IMG/VR virus record: IMGVR_UViG_3300025086_000167
Location: 1-28,226 of that record
DNA length: 28,226 nucleotides
Direction: 5' to 3' (one strand)
DNA from: a virus
Position 1 is the stretch's first letter, and each line of letters starts with the position of its first letter. The notes beneath the pieces are model-generated. The model searched no databases and was not told where the DNA came from. It saw only the letters and a list, made by a program, of their open reading frames with translations. Shown here in pieces: positions 4,725-27,777 of the stretch. Made by a program: the position numbers and the translations under genes.

Positions 4725-4729
4725 ACATT

Positions 4730-4737
4730 TATTTATG
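4730..4737 (-). promoter_or_regulatory. Late-type -10 box CATAAATA
   Basis: Reads CATAAATA on the minus strand, one base from the T4 late consensus TATAAATA. Exactly 5 bases (AATGT) separate it from the ATG at 4724. By the T4 spacing the +1 base would be the A of the ATG. Confidence 0.65.
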
Positions 4738-4743
4738 CTCGAG

Positions 4744-4751
4744 CATAAATA
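4744..4751 (+). promoter_or_regulatory. Late-type -10 box CATAAATA
   Basis: Reads CATAAATA on the plus strand, 6 bases before the GTG at 4758. It is the mirror image of the minus-strand box across the palindrome centre. No Shine-Dalgarno sequence could fit between box and start. Confidence 0.65.
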
Positions 4752-4757
4752 ATTTAT

Positions 4758-5090
4758 GTGGCTAACAACGGATATTACCCTTATTTTACAGGAATTGCTG
4801 ATAAACAGTATTCACCTAACTTAAACACTGATGCACAAGTAAACAAGTATAAGGAGGATGAAGCTAATCAAAAAGCACCGCCCATACTTCCTTATGAATT
4901 ACAGCAGATACAGCAACTCATAGGAGATACCTTTGTCTCCCTAGCGGAACTAAGGGCTATGCTTACAGCAGCGTCTGATAAAAACGGTATAGATAGCAGT
5001 GTTATTGATAGTATTAATCAGAAAATAGATAAAGTTAATGAAATATTAACACTTGAAATTCCTGAAGATCTATCTAAAATATCTATATGA
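4758..5090 (+). CDS. Small late protein, function unknown
   Basis: The 110-residue protein begins with GTG. An ATG two bases earlier (4756) is in another frame and stops after 22 codons, so GTG is preferred. The N-terminus is rich in Tyr, Asn and Pro (ANNGYYPYFTGIADKQYSPN). The C-terminal half is helical (LAELRAMLTAASDK, SVIDSINQKIDKVNEILTL). The late-type box and lack of enzymatic motifs suggest a minor virion protein. It overlaps the next gene by ATGA. Confidence 0.68.
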   Translation: MANNGYYPYFTGIADKQYSPNLNTDAQVNKYKEDEANQKAPPILPYELQQIQQLIGDTFVSLAELRAMLTAASDKNGIDSSVIDSINQKIDKVNEILTLEIPEDLSKISI

Positions 5091-5494
5091 GAATAGGTAT
5101 CTCTCTTTTAATAGTTTTAATAATATCAGCAGCATTAGGCTATGCTTTTAGAAACGTACTAGGATTTTTTGAAACTGCTATATTAGCAGCATTTTTACAA
5201 CTAATAGCTCCTTCAGTCTGGAATGCTATTTTTAAGCATAAAGAAAAAGTACTTCAATTAGAGAGTGAAATTAATTACTTGGTAGAACTTAACACAGCAG
5301 AAGTCGACTGTCCTTGCGGTAATTACAAATTTAATGAAATTGTAGTTATAACAGATAGTACAGTTGAAAGTAAATGTCCTAAATGCGGAGGAGTTTATAG
5401 ATTAGTACCTTCAGTTAAAGCAATACTTACTACTGAAGTGGTAGATGTAAATAAAAAGCCTTTCGATGATATAAAAATTGGAAAGGAAATATAA
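5087..5494 (+). CDS. Membrane protein with C-terminal zinc ribbon
   Basis: This 135-residue protein has two hydrophobic segments near the N-terminus (about residues 3-21, ISLLIVLIISAALGYAF, and 25-47). A short charged helix follows, then a soluble domain with paired cysteines C75/C77 (CPCG) and C97/C100 (CPKC) that would bind zinc. It would sit in the host inner membrane with the zinc domain probably in the cytoplasm. Function is unknown. Translational coupling to the preceding gene is likely (ATGA overlap). Confidence 0.75.
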   Translation: MRIGISLLIVLIISAALGYAFRNVLGFFETAILAAFLQLIAPSVWNAIFKHKEKVLQLESEINYLVELNTAEVDCPCGNYKFNEIVVITDSTVESKCPKCGGVYRLVPSVKAILTTEVVDVNKKPFDDIKIGKEI

Positions 5495-5506
5495 TATAAT
5501 ATATAT

Positions 5507-5752
5507 ATGGAACGAGAATTTACTTTTAACTTAAAAGATGGTACTACTAAAAAAATGTTATTTAATGAGTTCGTTAGATGGGCTTGTTTGATAGAAGGCG
5601 TTGAAAAAGTTTCTGAGAAACTTGAAGAGGCTGGTGTTGATATGAATAAGAATGATTGGGTAAAACCTTTAGCTTTTCAAAAATATGTTGAAGAACGATA
5701 TCATTCAATGAGGCATGATCTTACTGTTGAAGCTGGCTTAGGTAATATATAA
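5507..5752 (+). CDS. Small protein, function unknown
   Basis: This 81-residue protein starts with MEREFTFNLKDGTTKKMLFN and is otherwise helical with several aromatics (FVRWACLIEGVEKVSEKLEE). The 12-base gap upstream is a TA repeat containing a weak late-like box (ATATAATA at 5494-5501, 5 bases before the ATG). AAAGGAAA lies too far upstream to be a good ribosome site. The next gene begins one base after its stop. No family is recognised. Confidence 0.68.
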   Translation: MEREFTFNLKDGTTKKMLFNEFVRWACLIEGVEKVSEKLEEAGVDMNKNDWVKPLAFQKYVEERYHSMRHDLTVEAGLGNI

Positions 5753-5753
5753 G

Positions 5754-6593
5754 ATGAAAAAGCTTACCATAGGGTTATGTGTATACGATGATTTTGATGG
5801 TATATATTTTACATTACAATCTCTAAGACTTCATCATTCAGAGGTAATGAATGAGGTTGAATTTATTATTATAAATAATAATCCTAAATCTCATCAAGGG
5901 GGTGAAATTCAAAAGTATACTAGACATATTACTGAGCCTTTAACCTATGTTGAGTACAGCTCTTACAGTTCAACTGCATTAAGAGATAAAATTTTTACCT
6001 TAGCTAACACACCTTATGTACTGGTAATGGACTGTCATGTTCTGCTAGAAGGTGGTATTTTAAAAAAGCTTATTGAATTTTATGATCAAGAAGAAGATAA
6101 AGGTAATCTATTACAAGGTCCTTTAATTTATGATGATTTGAATAATTTAAGCACTCATTATGATCTAGATACTTGGGGAGCCTATATGTGGGGTACCTGG
6201 GGCACTGATAAAAGAGGAGAAAAAAGAGAAAATAAACCTTTTGAGATTCCAGCGCAAGGACTCGGTTTATTTAGTTGTCGTAAAGATGCTTGGTTAGGTT
6301 TTAACAATCAATTTAGAGGCTTTGGTGGGGAAGAAGGTTACATTCACGAAAAATTTAGACAAAATGGTAAAGTTACATTGTGCCTACCCTGGCTTAGATG
6401 GTTACATCGGTTCCAACGACCGCATGGAGTACCATATAACTGCGATTTAAAAGATAGATTTAGAAATTATATGATAGGCTTTACTGAACTTAAGTTAGAT
6501 ACTAGTGAAGTAATCAAACAATTTCAAGAAGTTATCTCTTCTAAGTATATAGCTCAAGTTAAAAAGGAGCTTGGTATTACTAAGAAAAAATAG
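5754..6593 (+). CDS. Glycosyltransferase, GT-A fold / family 2-like
   Basis: This 279-residue protein begins like GT2 enzymes: KLTIGLCVYDDFDGIYFTL (residues 3-21), then EFIIINNNP (36-44) for nucleotide-sugar binding, and YVLVMDCHVLLEGG (88-101), where D-C-H stands where the usual DxD metal motif lies. Residues 188-200 (RGFGGEEGYIHEK) carry the acidic pair expected for the catalytic base region. Trp-rich stretches (WGAYMWGTWG, LPWLRWLHRF) probably line the acceptor site. It would transfer a sugar to phage DNA, a virion protein or a host glycan; the acceptor cannot be told. It ends with a 14-base convergent overlap. Confidence 0.82.
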   Translation: MKKLTIGLCVYDDFDGIYFTLQSLRLHHSEVMNEVEFIIINNNPKSHQGGEIQKYTRHITEPLTYVEYSSYSSTALRDKIFTLANTPYVLVMDCHVLLEGGILKKLIEFYDQEEDKGNLLQGPLIYDDLNNLSTHYDLDTWGAYMWGTWGTDKRGEKRENKPFEIPAQGLGLFSCRKDAWLGFNNQFRGFGGEEGYIHEKFRQNGKVTLCLPWLRWLHRFQRPHGVPYNCDLKDRFRNYMIGFTELKLDTSEVIKQFQEVISSKYIAQVKKELGITKKK

Positions 6594-7710
6594 ATAGGCT
6601 ATTATCAGGTATTAAGAAAGGAAGGCCTCTATAGTCCCCTTCTATAGTAATATTATTATCGATAGCAAAATCATCCGCTCTTTCTTTAGGTATAATACCA
6701 ATAGTTTGAATATTTAACCCTGTATCAACTAATATACCTTTAAATCTTATTGGTGTATCAACAGAAATATTGTTATCAGTTCTAAATATGGTAATATTTT
6801 GTTTAGCTGTTTCTAATAAACTAATATTAGCTTGATCAGCAATTGCTGAAATACCTACCGCGGTAGTAATGTTACTATTAGGGTTGAAACTATTACCTCT
6901 TGTAGTTAGAGTTTCAGTTATCACACTATCAGTAACTAAACCTTCAATATGTGGGTCTTTTAAGAAGAATTTACCTACTGATAAGGCGGGGCTTGATGTT
7001 GAGACTGGTGTAGTAAACGAATAACCTACAAAAACGTCTAAATTATCAAAGTTATCTAATTCTAAAGGTAAACTAACAGTAGTAAGTGTTTCAAATTTAG
7101 AGTTTACATTTCTATCTATAGATATTTTAGTACCTAAATTAGCGTATCTAAACCTTAAAGTTGTAAAATCGTCCGAAGTTAAAGGTATAGTAGGTGAAAA
7201 AGTAGATAACTCTTCATAAAAAACTAAGCTCTTATTAAAATCTCTAATACAGAGGGAATTTCTTCTTACTTCATGAGGTTTAACCCCGTCTCTACCATCT
7301 CTACCTGATAAACCATAAAGTCCAGTAGTATCAAAAACTATTTTAACTAGTTGACCGCTTAAGCTAGTAGAATCAATTACTAAATTTTCACTACTTTCAG
7401 TAAGAAGAGGTAAAGCTGCTTCAGAAAGCAATGAAACAGCTGATAAAGCAACACTAGGGTCTTGATCTCCGACATATTGACCCGGTAAAGAAGAAATTTC
7501 TGAGGTTAATGTAGTTAAGAACGTACCAAAAGCGTATTCAACAGCAGATTCAGGAGCTTGCCATGAATTACCTTCTAGACCTAGATCTCCAGGTACTTTA
7601 AAATCAAACGACCATACAATATCATAATTAGAATTATATCTAAAATCTTTTTCTACAAATTGATACGACCTCTCACCGGGTGGTAGCTTTATTTCGTTAG
7701 GTAGAGCCAT
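6580..7710 (-). CDS. Late virion protein of unknown function, end of the tail block
   Basis: This 376-residue protein has a late-type box 6 bases before its ATG. The composition (Thr, Ser, Asn, Leu; almost no Cys) and alternating beta pattern are typical of fibre, baseplate or capsid-decoration proteins. A short Gly-rich GLYGLSGRDGRDGVKPHE (about residues 130-150) looks like a collagen-like or loop insertion. Around it the protein could be a beta-sandwich, for example lectin-like (SLCIRDFNKSLVFYEELSTF). No family is recognised. It is the last minus-strand gene of the block, and its 3' end overlaps the glycosyltransferase gene. Confidence 0.72.
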   Translation of the reverse strand: MALPNEIKLPPGERSYQFVEKDFRYNSNYDIVWSFDFKVPGDLGLEGNSWQAPESAVEYAFGTFLTTLTSEISSLPGQYVGDQDPSVALSAVSLLSEAALPLLTESSENLVIDSTSLSGQLVKIVFDTTGLYGLSGRDGRDGVKPHEVRRNSLCIRDFNKSLVFYEELSTFSPTIPLTSDDFTTLRFRYANLGTKISIDRNVNSKFETLTTVSLPLELDNFDNLDVFVGYSFTTPVSTSSPALSVGKFFLKDPHIEGLVTDSVITETLTTRGNSFNPNSNITTAVGISAIADQANISLLETAKQNITIFRTDNNISVDTPIRFKGILVDTGLNIQTIGIIPKERADDFAIDNNITIEGDYRGLPFLIPDNSLSIFS

Positions 7711-7716
7711 TATACA

Positions 7717-7724
7717 TATTTATT
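7717..7724 (-). promoter_or_regulatory. Late-type -10 box AATAAATA
   Basis: Minus-strand AATAAATA, 6 bases upstream of the ATG at 7710, in the 25-base gap after the 52-aa ORF. Confidence 0.6.
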
Positions 7725-7735
7725 CCTGTATAATG

Positions 7736-7894
7736 TTAATCAAAAGCTTTTAAAATTTCATTTACCTTCTCAATTAAAATTTTACAGCTTCTGAAATCTT
7801 TTTCTTCTCCAGGTTTAAAAGAGGATTGCTCAGCTAGCTTTTTTATAAAGACAAAATCTTGGTAATCTAATCCCTCTACAACAATTTCTTTCAT
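7736..7894 (-). CDS. 52-residue small protein between fibre genes
   Basis: An ORF from ATG at 7894 to TAA at 7736 encodes 52 residues: MKEIVVEGLDYQDFVFIKKL, then AEQSSFKPGEEKDFRSCKIL, then a helix IEKVNEILKAFD. It lies 8 bases after the preceding fibre gene and fills nearly all of the space before the next gene. The sequence looks like a real small folded protein. Position after fibre genes could suit a fibre chaperone or assembly factor, but this is a guess. Confidence 0.62.
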   Translation of the reverse strand: MKEIVVEGLDYQDFVFIKKLAEQSSFKPGEEKDFRSCKILIEKVNEILKAFD

Positions 7895-7902
7895 ATATTT
7901 AA

Positions 7903-9453
7903 TTATTCGCCGTAACCAATTATATCAACAAATACATTTGGTTGTAACCCAGGAGCTGTTCTATTTCCGTCGAGAGCAACAAATAGCTTTCTGGAAGTTC
8001 TGTTAAATCTAGCTGTAAATTGGCCTCCGTCTCCTTGTTGCGATCTACCTTGTACTGTACCACCACCGGCATCACCTAAAACAAACTTTTTAGAAGTAGC
8101 TGCAGGTAAGGCTGAATTATCAAAAGTAAAGTAGAAAGCAGCTCTATTAGGTATAGTATACTGACAATGAATAACCTTAGCAGCTACTGGTACTATGGTA
8201 GGTAAGTCAAAACCAGTCCATGAATTAACAACAAAATCAGTACCATCATTAATTAACTCTACCGGGGAGTCAAGGTAAACGTTTTTATAAATAGTAGCTT
8301 TAGAATCTGCGGGATATCCATCGTTATTTGATGAAAGACCTACCTCAATAGTACCACTTAAGAATTGAGTAGCTGTATTGTCTATACGTACTCCATTTTT
8401 AGCAGCAGAAAGTGGTGTATTAAATGATATAGTTGGAGCGCTTACCTTATCATCAACAGCTTTTATAATAAACGTGGTTGCTAAGGCAGATAATGGACTT
8501 GAACTTAAAGCACCACTAACACTAGCATTACCTTGCCCTAATCCTGAAACTACGTGGTACTCAGTACCTAAAAACGGGTCAGCTACTGCTGATCCGTATA
8601 AAGTAGCTCTCGTAAAATCTGGAAGCACAAAATTATCACCAGTACCTCCATATCTATTTCCTATAACACCAGATAAATCAGGATAATTAGTACCTGTTAC
8701 AGTTGAACCATCACATTTTAACCACCCATATGGTACATCAGCAACTGCAGATATAAATGGTACTATTGATCCTACTGGTACTGCTCCAGCAGATGTATTT
8801 GGTACGATAGTTTCTACCACAGTAGGTAAAGCCCACCTTAATTGACCTGTAGGATCAGAAATTAATTGACTGTTATTAACTGAAGGCTTTACCGACGGAA
8901 AGTCATAATCAATTGCATTTATCTTTAACTTACTTGGTATCTCTAAATAACTTCCTGCATCTACTGTTCTTTGAGAAATACCATCTATATTAATAAAACT
9001 ACTTAATGCTACTTTTTGCGAACCATCAAGCTCTATACTACTACCTAAAGCATTTAAATCTATATTGCCAGCTGATAACTTACCTATAGTTATTCTTTGT
9101 GATGCATCAATGCTAATAGTATTATCTCCAGCTGAAGCTAAATTAGAAATAGTAACCCAGTCGTTAATACTACCACCGTTATTTTCGTTAATAAACTGTA
9201 ATATATTATTGTCACTATCAAAAGCAATATCACCTATTACTCCTGTTTTATCAGTAATAGTTTCTGCTGTACCTAAAAACTTATTACCAACTAAAGTACC
9301 ACCTGGTGTAGTACCATCTCCAATAAAAACTCTTTTTGTATCTGTTGTATATCCAAATTCACCCTCATCAAGAGTTACTTCTTTTCTTTCTATATCAGTA
9401 CCTCTCCTTACAAGAAGTTTTAAAAGAGTATTTTCTAAAATTTCAATGGACAT
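7903..9453 (-). CDS. Short tail fibre-like protein with Mtd-type N-terminus and collar domain
   Basis: This 516-residue fibre protein has residues 13-47 (LVRRGTDIERKEVTLDEGEF through DTKRVFIGDG) matching the small domain at the N-terminus of many phage fibres and of the major tropism determinant, probably for attachment to the baseplate. A beta-structured shaft (about 60-220) follows. A phage tail-collar domain lies at about 224-288 (VPVGSIVPFISA, PYGWLKCDGS, NFVLPDF), as in T4 gp12. The C-terminal 220 residues are unlike those of its neighbour and probably form the receptor-binding tip. It is a tandem paralogue of the next gene upstream. A late-type box lies 5 bases before the ATG. Confidence 0.82.
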   Translation of the reverse strand: MSIEILENTLLKLLVRRGTDIERKEVTLDEGEFGYTTDTKRVFIGDGTTPGGTLVGNKFLGTAETITDKTGVIGDIAFDSDNNILQFINENNGGSINDWVTISNLASAGDNTISIDASQRITIGKLSAGNIDLNALGSSIELDGSQKVALSSFINIDGISQRTVDAGSYLEIPSKLKINAIDYDFPSVKPSVNNSQLISDPTGQLRWALPTVVETIVPNTSAGAVPVGSIVPFISAVADVPYGWLKCDGSTVTGTNYPDLSGVIGNRYGGTGDNFVLPDFTRATLYGSAVADPFLGTEYHVVSGLGQGNASVSGALSSSPLSALATTFIIKAVDDKVSAPTISFNTPLSAAKNGVRIDNTATQFLSGTIEVGLSSNNDGYPADSKATIYKNVYLDSPVELINDGTDFVVNSWTGFDLPTIVPVAAKVIHCQYTIPNRAAFYFTFDNSALPAATSKKFVLGDAGGGTVQGRSQQGDGGQFTARFNRTSRKLFVALDGNRTAPGLQPNVFVDIIGYGE

Positions 9454-9458
9454 ATTTT

Positions 9459-9466
9459 TATTTAAT
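9459..9466 (-). promoter_or_regulatory. Late-type box ATTAAATA
   Basis: Minus-strand ATTAAATA, 5 bases before the ATG at 9453. The TAAATA core is intact and the first two bases differ from consensus. It overlaps the stop of the upstream fibre gene. Confidence 0.45.
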
Positions 9467-10904: not shown

Positions 10905-10911
10905 AATTTAA

Positions 10912-11538: not shown

Positions 11539-11544
11539 ATAATA

Positions 11545-11552
11545 TATTTAGT
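11545..11552 (-). promoter_or_regulatory. Late-type box ACTAAATA
   Basis: Minus-strand ACTAAATA with an intact TAAATA core, 6 bases before the ATG at 11538, directly after the upstream gene's stop. Confidence 0.42.
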
Positions 11553-15916: not shown

Positions 15917-15925
15917 TTACATATA

Positions 15926-15933
15926 TATTTAAG
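15926..15933 (-). promoter_or_regulatory. Late-type box CTTAAATA
   Basis: Minus-strand CTTAAATA, 9 bases before the ATG at 15916, in a 30-base intergenic gap. The TAAATA core is intact; the spacing is wider than at most other sites. Confidence 0.42.
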
Positions 15934-15946
15934 CTGTAAATTAAAT

Positions 15947-19392: not shown

Positions 19393-19398
19393 TTAATA

Positions 19399-19406
19399 TA
19401 TTTATT
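19399..19406 (-). promoter_or_regulatory. Late-type -10 box AATAAATA
   Basis: Minus-strand AATAAATA, 6 bases upstream of the ATG at 19392, overlapping the stop of the upstream gene. Confidence 0.58.
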
Positions 19407-21531
19407 AGTCAAACAGAGATAGACTACTAAATAAAGAATTACGAAATACTATATCTTCTATTTTATTATCTCCAGAGAACGCACTTAACGGGGTATCAAA
19501 ATCAAACGTGTTTTTAGGATCAGTAAAGTCAAGTAATCCGTCAGTTACAGAACCTTCTACACCTGATGTATAGCTATAAAAAGTATAAAAACTAGTTAAA
19601 TCTTCAGTAGAAAAACTTTCAGGTAATACTAAAGGCCAAGCCCAATTAGTACTATAGGTACTTAAACTATATTCAGTAGTAGTACCATTTAAAAATGATA
19701 CAGCGCACAATGGTTGAAAGGAATTTAAAAGTATACACTGCTTACTAAATTTTTCTTTAGCAACTATATCTGTACCAGCTGTAACTATATATGAAAGTGT
19801 ATCAATTTTATCACCAAGATTAGTACCATATACTGTTGGATTACCACCTCCTTTATCATCTAAATTTTGACTAAATTTATTTCTTGTACCCTTTAATTTA
19901 TTATATTCAGTAGAGAATAAAGAAATAAATCTAGCTACACTAGGTGGAAAATTAAAAAGTGATTGATCGTATATATTAGCTTCTTCATTAACTAACTTAC
20001 TTAAAGATATAATTGATCTTATATCACATGAATCAAGATCAATTTTATTATCTACAAAATTAAAAATTTTAGAATTGATAGTTTTGCCTAATGAAGAAGA
20101 AGAACTACTTAAATCACCAAAAATAGAACCTATAAAATCATCAAATAAAACATTTTTATCTAATAAAATTTCTTGAAATCTTAAACTTTTAAAAATATCT
20201 GTATAATCAACATTTTCGTTTTGCTTTGAAAATCCATAAAAATCTTTAGGAAATGCAGTCAGTGGGACTGCATTACTTGTCAAAGCTAAGTTAACAGAGC
20301 CATTAGTAAATAAACTGCTTACTGTAAGGGTTAAAGAAGTTGTTTCAGTAGAAAGACTGTCATTAAAAGTAAGACCCCCATAATACCAAAAATTAGTATC
20401 TACACCATCAATAGATCCTGATAAGCTTTCAATAGTAAAGTTACTACTACTTACATTTACACCGTCTTTTTGTAAGGTAAATGTTGGGGTTCCTATAGCA
20501 GATAAATTTTTAACTGTAAAATTTTGTATACTTTTAGGTTTTACTAAAAATGGTATCTGAACACCTTTGAATTGAACTGGGCTTATACCAAATATAGTTG
20601 CTTCTTCTAATCCTTCACTATCTAATCCATTTGAAGTAGCATTTAAACTTGATATTTTAAATGTTGATGAAGCTACGGCATCTACATTAGCAGTTAAAGT
20701 TATACCTAAATTATTATTATTATCGTTTACTGAAAAATTACCAGACTTATCTCTACTAAAAATCTTTTTTCTATCTTTAAATAATTCTATACTTATAGGG
20801 CTACTTACTGAATTATCAGTACTAAAATAAAAATTATTAATACCGGATGAACCTACATATAAACTACCTTTATCAGTACTTTTAGCTGGTACTATTATAG
20901 GAGGATTTACTCCAGAAAGTTTAACATAAACATTTTCCGAGCTTAATGTTAATTTAGATACTTCATTGTATTCATGAGCACTTAAATTATCAATAAAGGC
21001 TCTTTCATAAAAAGAATGATACCGTTTTAAGTGATTAAATTTATATGGTAGTAAGTCAAAATAGTTAGGTAGTCCTGTTCCGGAAATACTAAAAAATATA
21101 TCATTGTTAGTATTATAAAAAGGAGAATTATTTGTAATAGTAATAGCTTCTGAAAAATGACCTGCAGATAGAGTTAAAGTATTGTTTGGTATACTTATAG
21201 AAAAAGTATTTTCTATATAATCTTTAATATCAACGTTAGCAGAGTAGGAACCTAATACATTGTTATTTTGACAATCTCTTAATACCATTCTCACCTTATA
21301 CCTACCAGGTAGTTCATAAGTATGAACAGCAGTAGTTGAATGAATTATTGTACCATCTCCTAAATCAAAAGTAGCAGTAGTGTTATTTAGATCTTGTAAA
21401 ATTGTACAACCTGCTGGAATGTCTGCTACAAATGTTAAAGGAGTAAGAGATAGATTATAGGAAGATAAAACGTTATCTTGTTTATAATCTTCTACTCTAA
21501 ATAAGGCATAGGTTGTATTAATATTACTCAT
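19405..21531 (-). CDS. Baseplate-region virion protein with N-terminal PKD-like domain
   Basis: This 708-residue protein has residues about 30-105 forming a convincing PKD-type Ig fold: FVADIPAGCTILQDLNN, then ATFDLGDGTIIHSTTAVH (LGDGT at 57-61) and the closing HTYELPGRYKVRMVL. The central part is a series of beta-sandwich-like stretches (FTISNNSPFY-type, VKNLSAIGTPTFTLQKDGVN, SLTLTVSSLFTNGSVNLALT), perhaps further Ig-like repeats. The C-terminal 250 residues are mixed (RFQEILLDKNVLFDDFIGSI, CDIRSIISLSKLVNEEANIY). It directly follows gp6 with an 8-base overlap, so it is likely a wedge component. It is not recognisable as a T4 protein by sequence alone. Confidence 0.7.
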   Translation of the reverse strand: MSNINTTYALFRVEDYKQDNVLSSYNLSLTPLTFVADIPAGCTILQDLNNTTATFDLGDGTIIHSTTAVHTYELPGRYKVRMVLRDCQNNNVLGSYSANVDIKDYIENTFSISIPNNTLTLSAGHFSEAITITNNSPFYNTNNDIFFSISGTGLPNYFDLLPYKFNHLKRYHSFYERAFIDNLSAHEYNEVSKLTLSSENVYVKLSGVNPPIIVPAKSTDKGSLYVGSSGINNFYFSTDNSVSSPISIELFKDRKKIFSRDKSGNFSVNDNNNNLGITLTANVDAVASSTFKISSLNATSNGLDSEGLEEATIFGISPVQFKGVQIPFLVKPKSIQNFTVKNLSAIGTPTFTLQKDGVNVSSSNFTIESLSGSIDGVDTNFWYYGGLTFNDSLSTETTSLTLTVSSLFTNGSVNLALTSNAVPLTAFPKDFYGFSKQNENVDYTDIFKSLRFQEILLDKNVLFDDFIGSIFGDLSSSSSSLGKTINSKIFNFVDNKIDLDSCDIRSIISLSKLVNEEANIYDQSLFNFPPSVARFISLFSTEYNKLKGTRNKFSQNLDDKGGGNPTVYGTNLGDKIDTLSYIVTAGTDIVAKEKFSKQCILLNSFQPLCAVSFLNGTTTEYSLSTYSTNWAWPLVLPESFSTEDLTSFYTFYSYTSGVEGSVTDGLLDFTDPKNTFDFDTPLSAFSGDNKIEDIVFRNSLFSSLSLFD

Positions 21532-23356
21532 CTATTACTGTTAATTTAGCAGCTAACGAATTAGGGTTTATTAAGAACGGAAATTTAAAAAATGGTAAAG
21601 ATACGTCTTGGTTAACTAAACTTATATCAGCAGATGGATAAAGAGGATTATAAGATATAAATGATATGCCACTAAAAGATATATTTTCGTTATTATTTCT
21701 AGTTTCTATTCTTTTTACACCTTCAACACTTAGTATTTCAGATACAAGAGTAGAGAGAGATAATTGCTGACCTAAGTTATTATTAGTAGGACCAAAAAAC
21801 TTTGTTATAATAGCTAAAATTCTTGATTTTAAAATTTCTTTATTAATTTTATTATTAGATTCTCTAACTATAACTAACTTTGTATTTTTAGATACTTCAG
21901 GTTCTAAGTCAACTTGATTAGAAAATCCTAAATCAAAAGCCATATAAATAGGGTCTCTTGGAACTACTTCATGACTAATAGTTTTTCTTTCTAAAGAAGA
22001 ATCAACTATAAGCTTTTTAATTGAATTACTTAAAAATGGAGGATAGTCACCGTCTTTAGCTATATTAAATCTAGGTACTGTAAATATATTAATATTATTA
22101 AAATCACAACTATCAGAAAAGTTGACTTGATTAAGTAATACTCGATTTGATTTATCAGGATCTACACATATATTATAAAAATACTGTATATAATCATTAA
22201 TAAAGGTCTGATTACTAACAACTTTATTATCTATTAATATATTAGAGAAATTTTTACTTATAAAACCTTCGTAATCAGTTACACTAACAAGTCTTTGTTG
22301 AGAGCTAAATAATTTAGGTGCGTTTTCTCTTATTTCATCTACTGTTTCTTCTGTAGTTATAGGAGAAGACGGTTGTGGATTTTTAAAAGTTAAATTAGAA
22401 TTATTTGCTGATGATATAAATGTCGTAGAATCTTTGTTGGTATATGTATCATCAAATATTTCTCTTTGTCTAGAGCTATCATAAACGAAAAGCTTATTAC
22501 CGTTTATAGCATTTGTACTTACTATACCCCTTTGCCCGTCTGATAAAATATAATTTATAGATACAACGTCGCCCTTTGAAAGCTTTCTACCTGAAGTACC
22601 ATCACCAAATTTTATTTCAAAGTGACCATTTTCGTTCAACCGTTTTTCATAACACCTTGAATTATTATCTTTAATATATAAACTATCTACTTCGCTATAT
22701 TCATAATATAAACCAGAACTAGCTTCTTTAACATAAACACTAACAGTATCATCTGCTATAAATCTCCCACTATCTCCAGGGTCTAGAATATTATCAACAA
22801 CAAGAGTAACCTTTTCAAAATCAGTACCCTGTGCAGTATAATCAGGATATTCACTTACAGATCCTTGATATAGTATTACATTGTTATCAAGTTCAGTTAA
22901 TTTTTGCTCTTTTTGATCAGCTATAGTAAAGCTATAATCACTATTAAAGGTAAAAGGAATACTATCTACTAAGAAGAAAGAATATTTTTTAATAGTATAA
23001 TTACCTACTGCTAAGTCTGCATTTGCAGTAGCGTTTATTGAAGCGAGAGAAGTTTTTTTTCCAACAGGTTTATATCCTATAACCTTAACAATTTTATTCA
23101 TGTTTTCGTATAAGGTCGCCTGGTCGAAAGTAGATTCGGAAGCTGTATTATTTAAATAAAATAACAAAACATGATATGAATAAGCAATTATATCTATAAT
23201 AGCAGCTAAATTACTACCTTCAAAATTTTGATCAGTAAATTTTTCATTTTCATTTAAACGTTGAATAATGAAATCTTTCAAACTTACCGCGTCAAATGCT
23301 GCATATGCATCTTGCGGTAAGTTAAAATCTAAAAAATTATTGTTTTTATCAGCCAT
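21524..23356 (-). CDS. gp6: Baseplate wedge protein, gp6/gpJ-like
   Basis: This 610-residue protein (T4 gp6 has 660) has features of the gpJ/gp6 baseplate wedge family. The N-terminal helical region DFIIQRLNENEKFTDQNFEG is followed by SNLAAIIDIIAYSYHVLLFY (about 28-67) and TLYENMNKIVKVIGYKPVGK (81-100). A beta domain at 249-274 has the family loop KFGDGTSGRKLSKGDVVSIN. RLVSVTDYEGFISKNF and a C-terminal SLSTLVSEILSVEGVKRIET complete it. gp6 forms the ring that joins wedges around the hub and drives sheath contraction. It follows gp25 by 2 bases, as expected for partners in the same wedge. Confidence 0.88.
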   Translation of the reverse strand: MADKNNNFLDFNLPQDAYAAFDAVSLKDFIIQRLNENEKFTDQNFEGSNLAAIIDIIAYSYHVLLFYLNNTASESTFDQATLYENMNKIVKVIGYKPVGKKTSLASINATANADLAVGNYTIKKYSFFLVDSIPFTFNSDYSFTIADQKEQKLTELDNNVILYQGSVSEYPDYTAQGTDFEKVTLVVDNILDPGDSGRFIADDTVSVYVKEASSGLYYEYSEVDSLYIKDNNSRCYEKRLNENGHFEIKFGDGTSGRKLSKGDVVSINYILSDGQRGIVSTNAINGNKLFVYDSSRQREIFDDTYTNKDSTTFISSANNSNLTFKNPQPSSPITTEETVDEIRENAPKLFSSQQRLVSVTDYEGFISKNFSNILIDNKVVSNQTFINDYIQYFYNICVDPDKSNRVLLNQVNFSDSCDFNNINIFTVPRFNIAKDGDYPPFLSNSIKKLIVDSSLERKTISHEVVPRDPIYMAFDLGFSNQVDLEPEVSKNTKLVIVRESNNKINKEILKSRILAIITKFFGPTNNNLGQQLSLSTLVSEILSVEGVKRIETRNNNENISFSGISFISYNPLYPSADISLVNQDVSLPFFKFPFLINPNSLAAKLTVIDE

Positions 23357-23358
23357 TT

Positions 23359-23847
23359 TTATATAAAGTTATATCCATTACTATTTAATACAGATCTAAG
23401 TGATAGTCCATATACATTAAGAGACGGTACGTTTATTTGTAGTGTAATATTATATTCCTGTTGATCCTCATTAGCACTTACTTCTACTTTTTCTAATTCT
23501 ATTCGTGGTTCGAAGTTAGGTAAATTTTCTTCTATATCAGATTGTATCTCTAATTCAGTAAAAGGACTTACAGGATCGAAAATAAATCTTCTTAAATCTA
23601 TTCCAAATTCAGGGTTTAGAATTTTTTCTCCTGGTGATGTAAGTAAAGCATTTGCTATACTATTTTGTATTGACTCTATATCGTATAAACCTTGTACGTC
23701 TTTAAGCTCCTCTTTACGATTTAACTGACGATTAAAGGAGACTCTATTCTCAATATCAAGAAATAAGTCTTTATATAGATATTGCTGCTTAAGAGCTGCG
23801 TCTTCTGCCTCAGTAACTGATACTGAATCTATCTTAATTAAAGCCAT
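23359..23847 (-). CDS. gp25: Baseplate wedge protein, gp25/GPW-like
   Basis: This 162-residue protein belongs to the gp25/GpW lysozyme-like baseplate family (T4 gp25 has 132 residues). The signature spans residues 58-95: ESIQNSIANALLTSPGEKIL, NPEFGIDLRRFIFDP, where the EKILNPEFG loop and following Arg/Phe are typical. The acidic helix LEIQSDIEENLPNFEPRIEL comes next, then terminal strands (YNITLQINVPSLNVYG). gp25 starts sheath polymerisation and packs against gp6, encoded next. A late-type box lies 8 bases before the ATG. Confidence 0.9.
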   Translation of the reverse strand: MALIKIDSVSVTEAEDAALKQQYLYKDLFLDIENRVSFNRQLNRKEELKDVQGLYDIESIQNSIANALLTSPGEKILNPEFGIDLRRFIFDPVSPFTELEIQSDIEENLPNFEPRIELEKVEVSANEDQQEYNITLQINVPSLNVYGLSLRSVLNSNGYNFI

Positions 23848-23855
23848 TACTTATA

Positions 23856-23863
23856 TATTTAAT
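23856..23863 (-). promoter_or_regulatory. Late-type box ATTAAATA
   Basis: Minus-strand ATTAAATA, 8 bases before the ATG at 23847, in the gap after the 76-aa gene. Confidence 0.42.
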
Positions 23864-23875
23864 AAGAAACCTCTT

Positions 23876-24106
23876 TTAGACTTCCTCTTCATATTTTAAC
23901 TCTCTCTCACTATCATCTTGATATATATTTTTTAATATTTCAGCAGCTAAATCATCAAAGCTTTCTTCTTCCTCTTCCTTATCTGCTATATGTAATGCTG
24001 CAAGATATTTATTTTTAGCATCCTTTGTACCTTTTGTGCACCCAACCTTCTTTGTACCCTTATATACACAATACTTATTACCTTCTTTTTTAGCTTTATA
24101 TGGCAT
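23876..24106 (-). CDS. Small basic/acidic two-part protein, function unknown
   Basis: This 76-residue protein has a lysine-rich first half with two cysteines (KEGNKYCVYKGTKKVGCTKG, then TKDAKNKYLAALH). The second half is very acidic (KEEEEESFDDLAAEILKNIY). The N-terminal Y-C-V-Y-K...G-C-T-K-G pattern recalls short proteins found in other marine phage genomes, without known function. It would be the first gene of the long minus-strand late block. A full T4-consensus late box lies 12 bases before its ATG. Confidence 0.7.
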   Translation of the reverse strand: MPYKAKKEGNKYCVYKGTKKVGCTKGTKDAKNKYLAALHIADKEEEEESFDDLAAEILKNIYQDDSERELKYEEEV

Positions 24107-24118
24107 TTTTACTGTAAA

Positions 24119-24126
24119 TATTTATA
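24119..24126 (-). promoter_or_regulatory. T4-consensus late -10 box TATAAATA
   Basis: Minus-strand TATAAATA, an exact match to the T4 late consensus, 12 bases before the ATG at 24106. It is the one minus-strand box that leaves room for a short leader (about 7 bases). Confidence 0.7.
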
Positions 24127-24131
24127 GATTT

Positions 24132-24139
24132 AATAAATA
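24132..24139 (+). promoter_or_regulatory. Late-type -10 box AATAAATA
   Basis: Plus-strand AATAAATA, exactly 5 bases before the ATG at 24145. With the minus-strand box at 24119-24126 it makes a divergent pair in a 38-base intergenic region. Confidence 0.6.
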
Positions 24140-24144
24140 ATTAT

Positions 24145-24480
24145 ATGTCTAAACAACACAGAAATTTCGGTAAAGATATTCACCAACTAAACGAGACGTA
24201 CAACGAGATGTTGAACGGAGCGCATATGTTTCAAAATACAGGTAATCCTCAAGCTGCAGCTGATAGTATGAAGGAAGAAGATAGACCATTTTCTCCTAGT
24301 CACGGTGCACAAGATAAGATTCCATTTGAAGATAACGAAGATGATAAAGGTATTGATCATCTTAAGCATGCTTTAAAGATGCTCGGTAAGGCTAAGCTTA
24401 TGAAGCATCTCGAAGAGATGGAAGAGGATATCGAAGATGAAGAGTTTAATTTTAAAGGTGGTGATATTGAACACGACTGA
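24145..24480 (+). CDS. Late protein of unknown function, ending at an in-frame TGA
   Basis: This 111-residue product begins MSKQHRNFGKDIHQLNETYN and contains MFQNTGNPQAAADSMKEEDR and PFSPSHGAQDKIPFEDNEDD. An amphipathic helix (LKHALKMLGKAKLMKHLEEM) and a very acidic end (EEDIEDEEFNFKGGDIEHD) follow. The frame stops at TGA (24478-24480), but the same frame then stays open for 64 codons. The native product may therefore be a 176-residue protein made by readthrough, or the gene may be interrupted. The helical, charged composition and late-type box suggest a virion or scaffold component. No family is recognised. Confidence 0.65.
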   Translation: MSKQHRNFGKDIHQLNETYNEMLNGAHMFQNTGNPQAAADSMKEEDRPFSPSHGAQDKIPFEDNEDDKGIDHLKHALKMLGKAKLMKHLEEMEEDIEDEEFNFKGGDIEHD

Positions 24481-24675
24481 GCTTCTCACATTAAACATCC
24501 TCAGTTTGGGGAGTCAGTCAAGAAAGTCCTTCACCATAGCTTAACTTCAGCAGGCGTTATTGAAGAATATTATGTTGAACATAACGGTAAATTAGCAAAA
24601 GTACTTGCTGAAGAAGTTACAGTAGTTCAATTAAATGAGCATGGTGGTAGCGGTAAGAAGAAGAAAAAGAAATAG
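24481..24675 (+). other. In-frame open extension after the TGA, without its own start codon
   Basis: Directly after the TGA the same frame reads 64 sense codons to a TAG at 24673-24675. The sequence is protein-like: ASHIKHPQFGESVKKVLHHS, LTSAGVIEEYYVEHNGKLAK, VLAEEVTVVQLNEHGGSG, then six lysines. No ATG, GTG or TTG occurs in this frame, so it is hard to translate independently. It could be a readthrough extension, a nonsense-mutated 3' half or a sequence error (TGG to TGA). It fills almost all of the otherwise gene-free 228 bases before the next gene. Confidence 0.6.
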
Positions 24676-24695
24676 CGCAATTACGGCCGATCTGG

Positions 24696-24703
24696 CATAA
24701 ATA
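24696..24703 (+). promoter_or_regulatory. Late-type -10 box CATAAATA
   Basis: Plus-strand CATAAATA exactly 5 bases before the ATG at 24709. The upstream 20 bases (24676-24695) show no other obvious signal. Confidence 0.65.
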
Positions 24704-24708
24704 AATAT

Positions 24709-25287
24709 ATGGCTAAAGAAAAGAAGTTTGTAAAGCTCTTTGAAAATTATATGCGTAGATTTGAACGCGGCGGCTTTTTAGTAGGCGACGTTTTTAAGTT
24801 TAATGATGACTTTAAGAGTCATGACGCATATAAAGGTTTAGGAGATAACATTAAAGAGCTTATAGATGACATGATTGAATCAGGTCTTCATATTAGAGTT
24901 GTTAATATAAAAGATACAGACCCAGCTCGTTATCCTTCAAATGATCAAACTTCTTCTCTTAAAACAGTTTTAGACATAGCCTTAGATACCGGTGGAGGTC
25001 GTTTTTCTCATTATTGTTCTGTACCCTGTGGGTTAGGTCAACCTGTTCAATATGCTCCAAATTTATTACCTATTCCTGACGCTATGAGACGTAAGGATAA
25101 TGTTAATATTAAACCTGAAGAAGCAGAAGAGGATAAAGATAATATTCAAAATAAGACAGACAGGGGTAATGGTGAGCTGAGTAATACTGAAAGATCTTTA
25201 CCTAAGGACAATACCCAAATTCCATCACAGCCAGCTACCCCATCTCAAGAAGTAAATTCTTATACTAAGCAGTATATCCCTAGTTAG
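24709..25287 (+). CDS. T4-like phage conserved protein of unknown function
   Basis: The first 135 residues of this 192-residue protein are well structured: FVKLFENYMRRFERGGFLVG, DVFKFNDDFKSHDAYKGLGD, IKELIDDMIESGLHIRVVNI, ALDTGGGRFSHYCSVPCGLG and LLPIPDAMRRKDNVNIKPEE. I recall a closely similar uncharacterised protein in T4-like marine cyanophages; that is memory, not a search result. The last 55 residues are a low-complexity Asn/Gln/Pro/Ser tail. A late-type box implies a late, probably virion-associated product. Its stop overlaps the converging secreted-protein gene by 8 bases. Confidence 0.75.
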   Translation: MAKEKKFVKLFENYMRRFERGGFLVGDVFKFNDDFKSHDAYKGLGDNIKELIDDMIESGLHIRVVNIKDTDPARYPSNDQTSSLKTVLDIALDTGGGRFSHYCSVPCGLGQPVQYAPNLLPIPDAMRRKDNVNIKPEEAEEDKDNIQNKTDRGNGELSNTERSLPKDNTQIPSQPATPSQEVNSYTKQYIPS

Positions 25288-26377
25288 ACCAGTTAGAGGT
25301 AACTCTAGCTACTCCCCATGGTAGATTATTAACTACAGCATAATTAAAGAGTAATTCTGGACCTCCTGTCCCTTCTCTAGTTGCTAAGACATTCCAGCCA
25401 GTGAATGTATCATAATACTCAGATGTATAGCTTATACCGGCTTTACCAGGCCATGTAATTACAAAATAGAGATTATTTAGATTTTGCCCAAATCCCCATT
25501 CAAGCATATTGTTGACCATAGCTGCTGGAGGTTCATTAGGATCAGTCGCTTTTTTAATTCTCTTAAATCCCGCAGGAGGCCAGGTAGTTATTATGCGCTG
25601 CGCCGGTAGCATATTGTTTGTAACAGACCATTTAGGAGCTTGTAAAAAGATAGCAGAAGATGATATTAACGTATAGCTATGATCTGTATTACCATCGCCT
25701 ACCTTCTTCCACCCTTCAGTTAAAGGAGGAAATTGTTGCTTTAAAGTATAATAATATCCTTCCCATTTGCCTTCTCTTTGTATCCAAAATATATCACCCC
25801 TCGACTCATCTCCTTTTAACAGACCAGGTGAACTACTAATGTTAGCTTCAGCAAATGAAATCGGCACAGGTGTTCCTCTGTTTATAAGAGTCCAACTCTT
25901 ATTTGAAATAATATTATTGTTTGCTCTATTTACGAAGCCTCCTATAGCTAATCCCCAATCTTCATTTCTTTTTGATTCATAAAAGAATCCTCGTTTTACC
26001 ATTGTTCCAGAGACGTCTTGGTCGCCATAACCTACAGCTCTCCAACCTCGAGTTATAGGAGGAAATACATCTCCTCCCGGACTCCAAAAAATTTGTAACC
26101 ATGTACCGTCTTCATTTGGCACCCATATAATGTCAGCATTTGCTGGGTTAGTATTACCTAGTACATAAGCAGCAGAAGATGGTCCAAATATTTTACCTAT
26201 TGATCTAGATACACTTCCATTAGGATTGACTGATGTGTTAAGGCCTATAAGTGTTAAAGAGTTAGCTCTTATTCTCTCAACTTCAAAACCTGATAAGTTA
26301 GAGACAGTCTGGGCTCCTAAAGGGGATACTATTGCTAATAATAATATTAAGAGCCTTATTAATAATAAAGGCTTCAT
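25280..26377 (-). CDS. Secreted protein resembling the verrucomicrobial TIGR02597 family
   Basis: This 365-residue protein has a clear signal peptide (KPLLLIRLLILLLAIVSPLG, likely cut after GA at 21-22). Two copies of a module follow. Copy 1 (about 79-150) has ADIIWVPNEDGTWLQIFW, FPPITRGWRAVGYGDQD and RGFFYESKR. Copy 2 (about 192-250) has GDIFWIQREGKWEGYYYTL, FPPLTEGWKKVGDGNTD and SAIFLQAP. The C-terminal 65 residues (YFVITWPGKAGISYTSEYYD, FTGWNVLATREG) resemble the beta module ending many secreted Verrucomicrobia proteins. This is not a usual phage protein and is probably host-derived. A late-type box upstream suggests late expression, so it could act in the envelope, in lysis or in exclusion. 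Confidence 0.8.
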   Translation of the reverse strand: MKPLLLIRLLILLLAIVSPLGAQTVSNLSGFEVERIRANSLTLIGLNTSVNPNGSVSRSIGKIFGPSSAAYVLGNTNPANADIIWVPNEDGTWLQIFWSPGGDVFPPITRGWRAVGYGDQDVSGTMVKRGFFYESKRNEDWGLAIGGFVNRANNNIISNKSWTLINRGTPVPISFAEANISSSPGLLKGDESRGDIFWIQREGKWEGYYYTLKQQFPPLTEGWKKVGDGNTDHSYTLISSSAIFLQAPKWSVTNNMLPAQRIITTWPPAGFKRIKKATDPNEPPAAMVNNMLEWGFGQNLNNLYFVITWPGKAGISYTSEYYDTFTGWNVLATREGTGGPELLFNYAVVNNLPWGVARVTSNWSN

Positions 26378-26383
26378 ATATTA

Positions 26384-26391
26384 TATTTATG
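26384..26391 (-). promoter_or_regulatory. Late-type -10 box CATAAATA
   Basis: Minus-strand CATAAATA, 6 bases before the ATG at 26377 of the secreted protein. It overlaps the last codons and stop of the clamp-loader gene, which points to a separate late transcript for the downstream gene. Confidence 0.6.
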
Positions 26392-27307
26392 CTTTTTCTA
26401 AATTTATTAAACAGGCAAATGCATTAATTTCTTTATCTACAACGAAAGCGCTCTTATAAAGATGATCTGCTATAGTAGCTATCATAGCTTTCTTTTTAAT
26501 ATCTTCCATTTTTTGATCATAGATATAATCTAAAAGATTCGCTAACAACGTATCATAATCACCTTGAAATCTATCTTCATTTTCTATCAAGTACTTTCTT
26601 AATTCGAGAGACTTACCCGCGGCTAGTCCTTCGAAGCACTTAGATAACAACTCGTTATCAGACACGTTACTATCAATAGAGAGGACTGAATCAATAACGC
26701 TTTTTTGAAGCTCGTTAATCGTTTTCCGTAGATCGGGGAAGTAACGCTTGACGAGTTGTATAAACTTTTTCTTTTGCTCATCACTTATATTTACATTTTC
26801 TTGTTTTAGAATACTATAACATCTTTTAACAGCTTGCTCAAGAACAGGTTTAAGATCTAATGACTGACATCTTGATTGTATAGCAGGTATAATTTTATGC
26901 TTATAATTAGCTGTAATAATGAATCTACAATACTTAGCATACGTTTCCATAGTATTACGTAACGCAGCTTGTGCTTGTGCTGTTAATCCATCTCCCTCAT
27001 CTAATATAACTACTTTTACACCACCATCAAATGACTTAGTTTGAGCAAAATTAGTGATATTATGTCTAATAGTATCGATACCAGACTCATCAGAAGCATT
27101 AATATAAAGGTAATTACATCCGAGAATATCGTTAACAATAACTCTAGCAAGGGTGGTCTTACCAGTACCAGGATTACCAACAAAAAGAAGATTAGGTATT
27201 TCATTTTTAAACCCTTTAATAATATTAAGAGTACGCTCATCTAGAATAATATCATCTAGCTTAGAAGGTCGATATTTTTCGACCCATATTTTATCAAATT
27301 CAATCAT
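26387..27307 (-). CDS. gp44: Sliding-clamp loader large subunit, gp44-like AAA+ ATPase
   Basis: At 306 residues it is close to T4 gp44 (319). It opens with IWVEKYRPSKLDDIIL, typical of clamp loaders. It has Walker A GNPGTGKTT (44-52), Walker B VVILDEGDGL (99-108), sensor 1 ITANY (131-135), the SRC arginine-finger motif at 145-147, and a lid region with DLRKTINELQ. The loader uses ATP to open gp45 and place it on primed DNA. In T4, genes 45-44-62 are adjacent; here gp44 lies 25 kb from gp45 on the other strand, and no gp62 is visible. It follows dUTPase by 2 bases. Confidence 0.92.
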   Translation of the reverse strand: MIEFDKIWVEKYRPSKLDDIILDERTLNIIKGFKNEIPNLLFVGNPGTGKTTLARVIVNDILGCNYLYINASDESGIDTIRHNITNFAQTKSFDGGVKVVILDEGDGLTAQAQAALRNTMETYAKYCRFIITANYKHKIIPAIQSRCQSLDLKPVLEQAVKRCYSILKQENVNISDEQKKKFIQLVKRYFPDLRKTINELQKSVIDSVLSIDSNVSDNELLSKCFEGLAAGKSLELRKYLIENEDRFQGDYDTLLANLLDYIYDQKMEDIKKKAMIATIADHLYKSAFVVDKEINAFACLINLEKA

Positions 27308-27309
27308 AA

Positions 27310-27738
27310 TTAACGACCAGATGAACCAAATCCTTTTTCACCTCTCTGACTTTCAATAATTTCACTTTCACTAGTCTCTACAGTATAGTTTCTATACACA
27401 ACAAATTGAGCAATACGATCACCTGCCTTAACCTCATAATCTTTATCAGTAAAATTATATAATTTAATTCCAGCATCTCCACGGTAGCCTTGATCTATAA
27501 TACCGGGATGAGGAAAGATACCATGCTTAAATCCTAAACCCGATCTACCTTCAACCTTTACCCAAAATCCAAAAGATATATAAGCAAATTTTAAACCTAC
27601 ATCTACTACAGCAGAGCCTTTAGCAGGAATAGTAATATCCACTACCGAAGAAACATCTAATCCAGTATCGTTATCATGATTCTTACGGGGTAGAACTGCT
27701 TTATCGTTCGTTTTCTTAAACTTAAGTTCCATACTCAT
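27310..27738 (-). CDS. dut: dUTP diphosphatase (trimeric dUTPase)
   Basis: The 142-residue enzyme has all five motifs of trimeric dUTPases: I DTGLDV (24-29), II EGRSGLG (63-69), III GIIDQGYRGDAGI (79-91) with the catalytic Asp and the uracil-site Tyr, IV KAGDRIAQFV (104-113) and V RGEKGFGSSGR (132-142), the flexible P-loop-like tail that closes over the phosphates. It hydrolyses dUTP to dUMP and pyrophosphate, keeping uracil out of DNA and feeding dTMP synthesis. The start is either ATG at 27738 or the second Met two codons later; both leave the motifs intact. No Shine-Dalgarno sequence or late box precedes it. Confidence 0.95.
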   Translation of the reverse strand: MSMELKFKKTNDKAVLPRKNHDNDTGLDVSSVVDITIPAKGSAVVDVGLKFAYISFGFWVKVEGRSGLGFKHGIFPHPGIIDQGYRGDAGIKLYNFTDKDYEVKAGDRIAQFVVYRNYTVETSESEIIESQRGEKGFGSSGR

Positions 27739-27742
27739 ATTA

Positions 27743-27750
27743 TATAAATA
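27743..27750 (+). promoter_or_regulatory. T4-consensus late -10 box TATAAATA
   Basis: Plus-strand exact TATAAATA, 32 bases before the GTG at 27783. If used, it would give a leader of roughly 27 bases without a Shine-Dalgarno sequence. It shares the divergent region with the dUTPase start. Confidence 0.5.
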
Positions 27751-27769
27751 CTAAAAAATATATCAACTG

Positions 27770-27777
27770 AATAAATA
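27770..27777 (+). promoter_or_regulatory. Late-type -10 box AATAAATA
   Basis: Plus-strand AATAAATA exactly 5 bases before the GTG at 27783, so the predicted +1 is the first base of the start codon. It is the second of two late-type boxes in tandem. Confidence 0.55.

Follow-up and report, generated by a model that had tools for sequence, protein, structure and literature searches.

Late transcription in bacteriophage T4 is a textbook system whose messages have 5′ leaders and carry a Shine-Dalgarno (SD) sequence, and the question raised here is whether a distant relative of T4 makes its late messages without them. The window, by which we mean the whole stretch of 28,226 bases analysed (G000; IMG/VR record IMGVR_UViG_3300025086_000167), is a fragment of an uncultured, distant T4-like phage, in which late-type promoter boxes with the core TAAATA stand a few nucleotides (nt) before start codons. 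A preliminary description of this DNA took that distance to suggest that the late mRNAs are probably leaderless, beginning at the start codon or one base before it and having no room for an SD sequence, unlike those of T4. Our analyses indicate that T4-type late promoters are very probably placed, in the window and its relatives, to give late mRNAs with leaders of 0–4 nt. We observed a fixed spacing between box and start codon, a lower limit of 5 nt to that spacing, a specificity of the boxes for late genes, no enrichment of SD motifs and a pyrimidine-purine step that keeps a set distance from the box.

The T4-like gene content of the window comprises gp25- and gp6-like baseplate wedges, a gp44-like clamp loader, a primase, an exonuclease, a dUTPase and short-tail-fibre-like proteins. 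Megablast of bases 1–25000 found no match in 50,697 phage records, and the gp6 protein matches 1842 records, of which the 40 that were listed are cyanophages without exception, at ~30% identity. With gp6 as the marker for finding relatives, related sequences were located at 55 IMG/VR loci, and seven gp6-related IMG/VR records, G001–G007, were read as overlapping pieces; these and the window are the eight records of the clade discussed below. G001 is a contig of 80.6 kilobases (kb) whose gp6 is 100% identical to that of the window, while G003 and G004 are the longest contigs at ~197 kb each. Open reading frames left open at the ends of pieces, genes lying 60 nt or less from a piece end and identical upstream regions were left out, and removal of 113 near-duplicates from 951 upstream regions left a clade set of 838. 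Comparison phages were read in part, for example 94 of 169 kb of T4 and 100 of 147 kb of HTVC008M.

Box placement in the window and its relatives

Spacing is given throughout as the number of nt between the end of the box and the start codon. TAAATA lies within 12 nt of the start in 14 genes of the window. The ten spacings reported in the preliminary description are all exact, at 5 nt for genes 4724(-), 9453(-), 24145(+), 24709(+) and 27783(+) and at 6 nt for 4758(+), 7710(-), 11538(-), 19392(-) and 26377(-); to these we add 1882(+) at 5 nt, 23847(-) at 8 nt, 15916(-) at 9 nt and 24106(-) at 12 nt. The boxes are as follows.

1869..1876 (+), late box CATAAATA, 5 nt before the ATG at 1882, which opens a 91-amino-acid protein one gene past a probable sliding clamp
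4730..4737 (-), late box CATAAATA, 5 nt before the ATG of 4724(-), whose orthologues in relatives were compared
4744..4751 (+), late box CATAAATA, 6 nt before the GTG of 4758(+)
7717..7724 (-), late box AATAAATA, 6 nt before the ATG of 7710(-)
9459..9464 (-), TAAATA core, 5 nt before the ATG of 9453(-), a tail-fibre-like protein
11545..11550 (-), TAAATA core, 6 nt before the ATG of 11538(-), tail-protein-like
15926..15931 (-), TAAATA core, 9 nt before the ATG of 15916(-)
19399..19406 (-), late box AATAAATA, 6 nt before the ATG of 19392(-)
23856..23861 (-), TAAATA core, 8 nt before the ATG of 23847(-), the gp25-like baseplate wedge, a gene also present in G001
24119..24126 (-), TATAAATA, 12 nt before the ATG of 24106(-)
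24132..24139 (+), late box AATAAATA, 5 nt before the ATG of 24145(+)
24696..24703 (+), late box CATAAATA, 5 nt before the ATG of 24709(+); TAAATA 5–6 nt before the ATG is kept in most relatives listed
26384..26391 (-), late box CATAAATA, 6 nt before the ATG of 26377(-)
27770..27777 (+), late box AATAAATA, 5 nt before the GTG of 27783(+); in many relatives this start is an ATG, at a distance of 5 or 6 nt from a box

Positions 4729–4752 form a perfect 24-bp palindrome, in which the late boxes of 4724(-) and 4758(+), two divergent genes, face each other head to head.

What sets the boxes apart is where they stand and not how many there are, since the one-mismatch box 8-mer occurs 196 times in the whole window against a shuffle mean of 189, with 29 of 100 shuffles reaching at least 196. 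A spacing of 5 or 6 nt is found at 9 of 31 called starts in the window compared with 1 of 741 other ATGs, and those nine compare with a mean of 0.26 and a maximum of 2 in dinucleotide shuffles (200 per sequence, with a gene caller blind to upstream sequence). The caller favours ATG, so GTG-started genes are under-counted, and the two in the window are not in its counts. The same spacing occurs at 39 of 215 starts in G003 (16 of 6804 other ATGs; shuffle mean 0.97, maximum 4) and at 54 of 243 in G004 (12 of 7782 other ATGs; shuffle mean 1.12, maximum 5), while the remaining relatives have TAAATA at 5 or 6 nt in 26 (G001), 23 (G002), 14 (G005), 18 (G006) and 14 (G007) cases. T4, passed through the same code, has it at 0 of 111 starts and 5 of 3580 other ATGs. 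When starts are called by a second rule, likewise blind to upstream sequence, G003, G004 and G001 keep their mode at 5 nt. At least one called gene has TAAATA at 5–9 nt in 52 of the 55 relatives (213 of 488 genes, near-duplicates included), and the three others have just 2–3 callable genes apiece. The spacing distribution across the genome and its relatives against shuffled sequence, named in the preliminary description as the test by which its claim could fall, thus came out strongly for tight spacing.

The distribution is also one-sided. Across the 838 clade regions TAAATA stands at 5 nt in 143 cases, at 6 nt in 66, at 7 nt in 24, at 8 nt in 23 and at 9 nt in 12, with a further 73 scattered over 10–54 nt; the lower limit is sharp, with 15 boxes in total at 0–4 nt against 268 at 5–9 nt. 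Such a cut-off is expected of a promoter, because a spacing below 5 nt would put the transcription start (+1) inside the start codon, and would not be expected of a ribosome-binding signal. Most copies of TAAATA are elsewhere in the sequence: of the 352 in G003 and the 68 in the window, no more than 57 and 11 respectively stand 5–9 nt before a called start.

Which genes carry a box was assessed with orthologues in G001–G007, assigned by phmmer from annotated proteins of T4, Syn9, P-SSM2, HTVC008M and phiM12. A box stands at 4–9 nt in 33 of 52 virion genes against 1 of 49 replication and recombination genes, counts in which related records repeat genes and the cases are not independent. Three genes of the window provide contrasts.

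820..1545 (+), probable sliding clamp without a box, named from a sliding-clamp model that it matches weakly (E-value 7e-4)
21524..23356 (-), gp6-like baseplate wedge, operon-internal; its start has no box less than 10 nt away
26387..27307 (-), gp44-like clamp loader, the replication-gene contrast, without a box; the gene is also in G001

The late 8-mer is NATAAATA-like in G001 and G003 and ATTAAATA-like in G004. As in T4-type late promoters, a TATAAATA-like -10 box stands without a -35 element; of 143 spacing-5 genes, eight have TTGA 15–19 nt ahead of the 8-mer. A profile model detected a gp55-like sigma factor in G001, G003 and G004 (E-values 7e-25 to 3e-27) and none in the window, G002, G005, G006 and G007, all of which are fragments.

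Two genes of the window (4758 and 27783), and gp17 in G002, G003 and G006, have GTG starts (likely ones in the case of gp17) 5–6 nt past a late box, which suggests leaderless initiation at GUG. Among the boxed genes, 25280–26377 (-) encodes 365 amino acids with what we read as a signal-peptide-like start and has its own late box; its product matched no PHROGs or NCBIfam family, and the one relative of it, a distant protein of 26% identity, is in G003.

Transcription starts, ribosome-binding signals and other promoters

In T4 the late consensus has its first base at -13/-12 (PMC2988020), which would make the sixth base past the box +1. Base counts by spacing used only genes with one TAAATA at 3–12 nt. 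Among 65 boxes that stand 7–12 nt from the start, a pyrimidine-purine step occurs at the fifth and sixth positions past the box (p5/p6) in 43 (background 0.236, p = 4e-13), against 6–23 of the 65 at five neighbouring steps; of 49 gene families, 33 have it in more than half of their members. The pyrimidine-purine step is the usual bacterial initiator, and at p5/p6 it would bring +1 onto the start codon where the spacing is 5 nt. A pyrimidine occupies -1 in 130 of 139 spacing-5 genes, compared with 299 of 523 genes that have no box within 30 nt. The proposed start of transcription at the start codon, or one base before it, would in this way fit the register of the box. Spacings of 6–9 nt would imply leaders of about 1–4 nt, and ‘leaderless’ is used here for leaders of 0–4 nt.

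SD-like 4-mers at -18 to -4 are present in 3–12% of genes in G001–G007 and in 6–15% in a control window, so that the lack of SD sequences predicted from the first reading of the window appears as an absence of enrichment. Elsewhere they reach 69% in T4 (control 6%), 73% in a Campylobacter phage, 51% in HTVC008M and 24–30% in cyanophages. At genes with boxes, an SD-like motif accompanies 17 of the 18 T4 genes with a box 14–49 nt upstream, 12 of 12 in RB49 and 11 of 12 in the Campylobacter phage.

Many clade genes that lack a motif overlap or abut the gene upstream (12 of 17 in the window, 33 of 48 in G001, 20 of 33 in G002, 60 of 127 in G003 and 72 of 130 in G004; 45 of 110 in T4) and may be translationally coupled. 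Others stand more than 25 nt away from the gene that precedes them and show neither a recognised motif nor an SD signal (36 of 127 in G003, 31 of 130 in G004). A phage-encoded bS21 or IF3 was rejected as a general cause of leaderless translation: of 15 records searched, bS21 turned up in three, HTVC008M, Mosig and Melnitz, but not in the eight of the clade, IF3 turned up in none, and Melnitz has bS21, yet just one gene at 5 nt.

Early-looking promoters of the clade resemble ordinary TTGA/TATAAT ones, which does not favour a Bacteroidetes-like host. Scans of genome contigs with the gp6-like protein and with the 25280–26377 protein, aimed at the host, found no relative. G003 contains a transfer-messenger RNA gene (Rfam RF00023, 132.5 bits) at L067:15777-16193 (-), with the tag AANKVVDFVLPQAEPQFALAA, which could point to the host. 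In G004 a tRNA with the amber-reading anticodon CTA lies at L086:15836-15910 (+); TAG is the rarest stop in that genome (8 of 244 called genes), but its share in T4 is similar (4 of 112), which gives no demonstration of stop recoding.

A second motif is placed beside start codons. Of the genes that lack a late box, 18 in G003 (shuffle mean 0.76, maximum 4) and 18 in G004 have TATAAT 6–8 nt before the start, with six such genes in G001, four in G002, three in each of G006 and G007, none in T4 and one in HTVC008M; G005 has a single copy, within chance, and G006 five further copies at 5 nt. The pooled counts peak at 6 nt (26, with 11 at 7 nt, 9 at 8 nt and 8 at 5 nt), 1 nt farther out than the late box, as expected of a -10 hexamer, which canonically occupies -12 to -7. 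Outside G004, 45 genes have TATAAT at 5–9 nt, with 17 instances of TTGAnn at a spacer of 15–17 nt and 14 of GGAAC exactly 5 nt upstream; counted per gene, 12 have TTGA at 16–18 nt, 18 have GGAAC within 16 nt and one has both. The arrangement GGAAC-N5-TATAAT, found in relatives such as G003, G006 and G001, looks like a clade-specific middle promoter. G004 instead has ACACTA within 60 nt of the start in 39 genes (L077-L079, L082); among its 40 copies, 26 share one exact distance, ending 15 nt from the start codon, most being followed by TATAAT or a close variant. The resulting TTAAACACTAA-nn-TATAAT is very conserved in G004 and is possibly an early or middle promoter class, for which we know of no name. 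The early-looking TTGA+TATAAT promoters and the middle-looking GGAAC or ACACTA+TATAAT ones, temporal classes that are guessed from sequence, look as if they obey the same placement rule, and leaderless operon starts appear to reach beyond the late genes.

The leaderless reading of the window thus gained support from the spacing tests and has to be widened: the layout is common to the clade and partly to pelagiphages, extends beyond late promoters and includes leaders of 1–4 nt. We lean towards the broader view that the clade lost 5′ leaders in all temporal classes (host-sigma early, GGAAC-N5-TATAAT or TTAAACACTAA-nn-TATAAT middle-looking, and gp55 late), each having +1 at or beside the start codon, with SD enrichment absent genome-wide, and that the switch between leadered and leaderless late messages took place more than once in T4-like phages, in this clade and partly in pelagiphages, reflecting translation initiation in the host.

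The proposed mechanism and its alternatives

In the mechanism that we propose, host RNA polymerase carrying the phage gp55-like sigma would read T4-type late promoters and would begin transcription at the A of the start codon where the spacing is 5 nt, and about 1–4 nt earlier where it is 6–9 nt. The late mRNAs would then have neither a 5′ leader nor an SD sequence, and ribosomes would presumably initiate at the 5′-terminal AUG, or sometimes GUG.

Several results weigh against this account. No box stands at 4–9 nt in 19 of the 52 late orthologues, the misses including gp6 (5), gp4 (3), gp15 (2), gp23 (2) and gp17 (3). In the three gp17 cases (G002, G003 and G006) the box lies 23 nt before the called ATG and an in-frame GTG, the likely start, exactly 5 nt past the box; this is a post hoc reading, and they are kept as misses in the 33 of 52. 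The gp55 model also matches two of 14 control bacteria, and its match in G004 contains TGA; the gp45 model scores in G003 alone of the eight clade records, the window having the weak clamp match, and the gp33 model matches none of the eight. The 65 boxes at spacing 6 have no clear p5/p6 step (21, with 27 at p4/p5 and 27 at p6/p7), and in leadered T4-like phages the step is not significant at p5/p6 (21 of 69, p = 0.14) and is higher at p4/p5 (25 of 69). Because both are weak, the register of the start site is sure only to about one base. SD motifs are also scarce at the box genes of cyanophages (4 of 12 in Syn9, 2 of 13 in P-SSM2), and since these SD-poor phages keep their boxes mostly 15–40 nt upstream, a missing SD alone does not imply a leaderless mRNA.

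The alternative that survives best accepts the promoters as placed, with the proteins made mainly from leadered polycistronic mRNA begun farther upstream and the boxes near the starts merely adding transcripts. Late-box genes often follow a same-strand neighbour by 4–25 nt (17 of 31 in G001), so read-through mRNA probably exists; yet box genes are also divergent (8 of 31 in G001, 27 of 69 in G004), and a leadered message would have no SD enrichment to use. We regard this reading as unlikely.

TAAATA might instead be a translation-initiation element, A/T-rich or Kozak-like as in SD-less Bacteroidetes, lying within an ordinary leader and not a promoter. Another initiation signal would be expected in a clade without SD enrichment, and SD-less Flavobacterium johnsoniae, whose mRNAs are mostly leadered, uses adenines at -3, -6, -12 and -13 (PMC6847099). 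Box-less genes of G003 have A at -3 in 52% of cases, and such a signal may act there. At spacing-5 box genes, by contrast, -3 is A in 40% and T in 42%, which is no Bacteroidetes-type preference for A, and the A at -6 is the final base of the box. The element is confined to late genes and its spacing breaks off sharply below 5 nt, its pyrimidine-purine step is tied to the box and not to the start codon, a different motif, TATAAT, peaks 1 nt farther out with TTGA or GGAAC upstream, and in T4 17 of 22 TAAATA copies lie 15–40 nt upstream. Taken together these make a translation element very improbable.

That the spacing is an artefact of start-calling bias in an AT-rich genome (30.6% G+C in the window, where TAAATA is frequent, with 68 copies over both strands) can practically be dismissed, as it was not reproduced by dinucleotide shuffles, by other ATGs, by the second start rule or by T4 run through the same code.

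Comparison with known systems

With the late promoters of T4 and the NATAAATA late promoters of cyanophages the clade shares the box core and the late structural genes, and three relatives have the gp55-like sigma; of the T4 late system (gp55/gp33/gp45), gp33 was not detected in the eight clade records. In the parts read of T4, RB49, CZ01, K452, Yut3, phiM12, the Campylobacter phage, Syn9, P-SSM2 and P-HM2 the box is mostly 15–40 nt upstream, whereas in the clade it is mostly at 5–9 nt; a single copy at 5 nt occurs in the Campylobacter phage and another in P-HM2. In T4 none of 112 genes (94 kb) has the spacing of 5 or 6 nt, and the contrast originally drawn with that phage holds in both box position and SD motifs. 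Two phages stand outside these ten: Caulobacter phage Cr30, with 50 kb read, few late genes and just two TAAATA, both at 40 nt, and Rhodothermus phage RM378, which has another motif. Across 47 genes of RM378 (L112) TATTTA occurs 15 times, and seven of these copies end 7 nt upstream of the start, which may mark a further promoter system set beside start codons.

Leaderless messages are known elsewhere. Most middle and late transcripts of the Thermus phage phiYS40 are leaderless (PMC3594737), while the clade, set apart from it by description only, combines T4-type late boxes with start-adjacent early-looking promoters. In Deinococcus-Thermus a -10 motif a few bp before the open reading frame yields leaderless mRNA (PMC12340547); that motif is cellular, whereas the box of the clade belongs to a phage late sigma. 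Phage transcripts are often leaderless according to PMC5312081, so leaderless phage mRNA as such is less novel. Listings from searches of the open-licence PMC literature contained no account of leaderless T4-type late promoters, and for pelagimyophages late-promoter prediction has been reported as unsuccessful (PMC7029224).

The layout is partly shared by the Pelagibacter phages HTVC008M and Mosig EXVC030M. In the parts read, TAAATA stands at 5 nt in ten of the 105 genes called for HTVC008M, gp25, gp4, gp48 and gp3 among them, and in five of the 100 called for Mosig, and an SD accompanies only 1 of 13 and 1 of 8 box genes respectively. Unlike the clade, HTVC008M (L110, L111) and Mosig (L136, L139) have an SD at 53 of 92 and 56 of 92 other genes, and both carry a gene for bS21, a protein that the search did not detect in the eight clade records. 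In Melnitz, a relative on another host, 1 of 81 genes has the box at 5 nt, and box placement among relatives plausibly differs in step with the host. The shift of the box to the AUG, across the clade and partly in cultured SAR11 phages, is a natural experiment on the fitting of promoters to the translation initiation of the host. It also offers an annotation rule, in which a box followed by 5–6 nt flags likely true starts, some GTG included, and HTVC008M with Pelagibacter HTCC1062 is a cultured pair that allows the layout to be tested directly.

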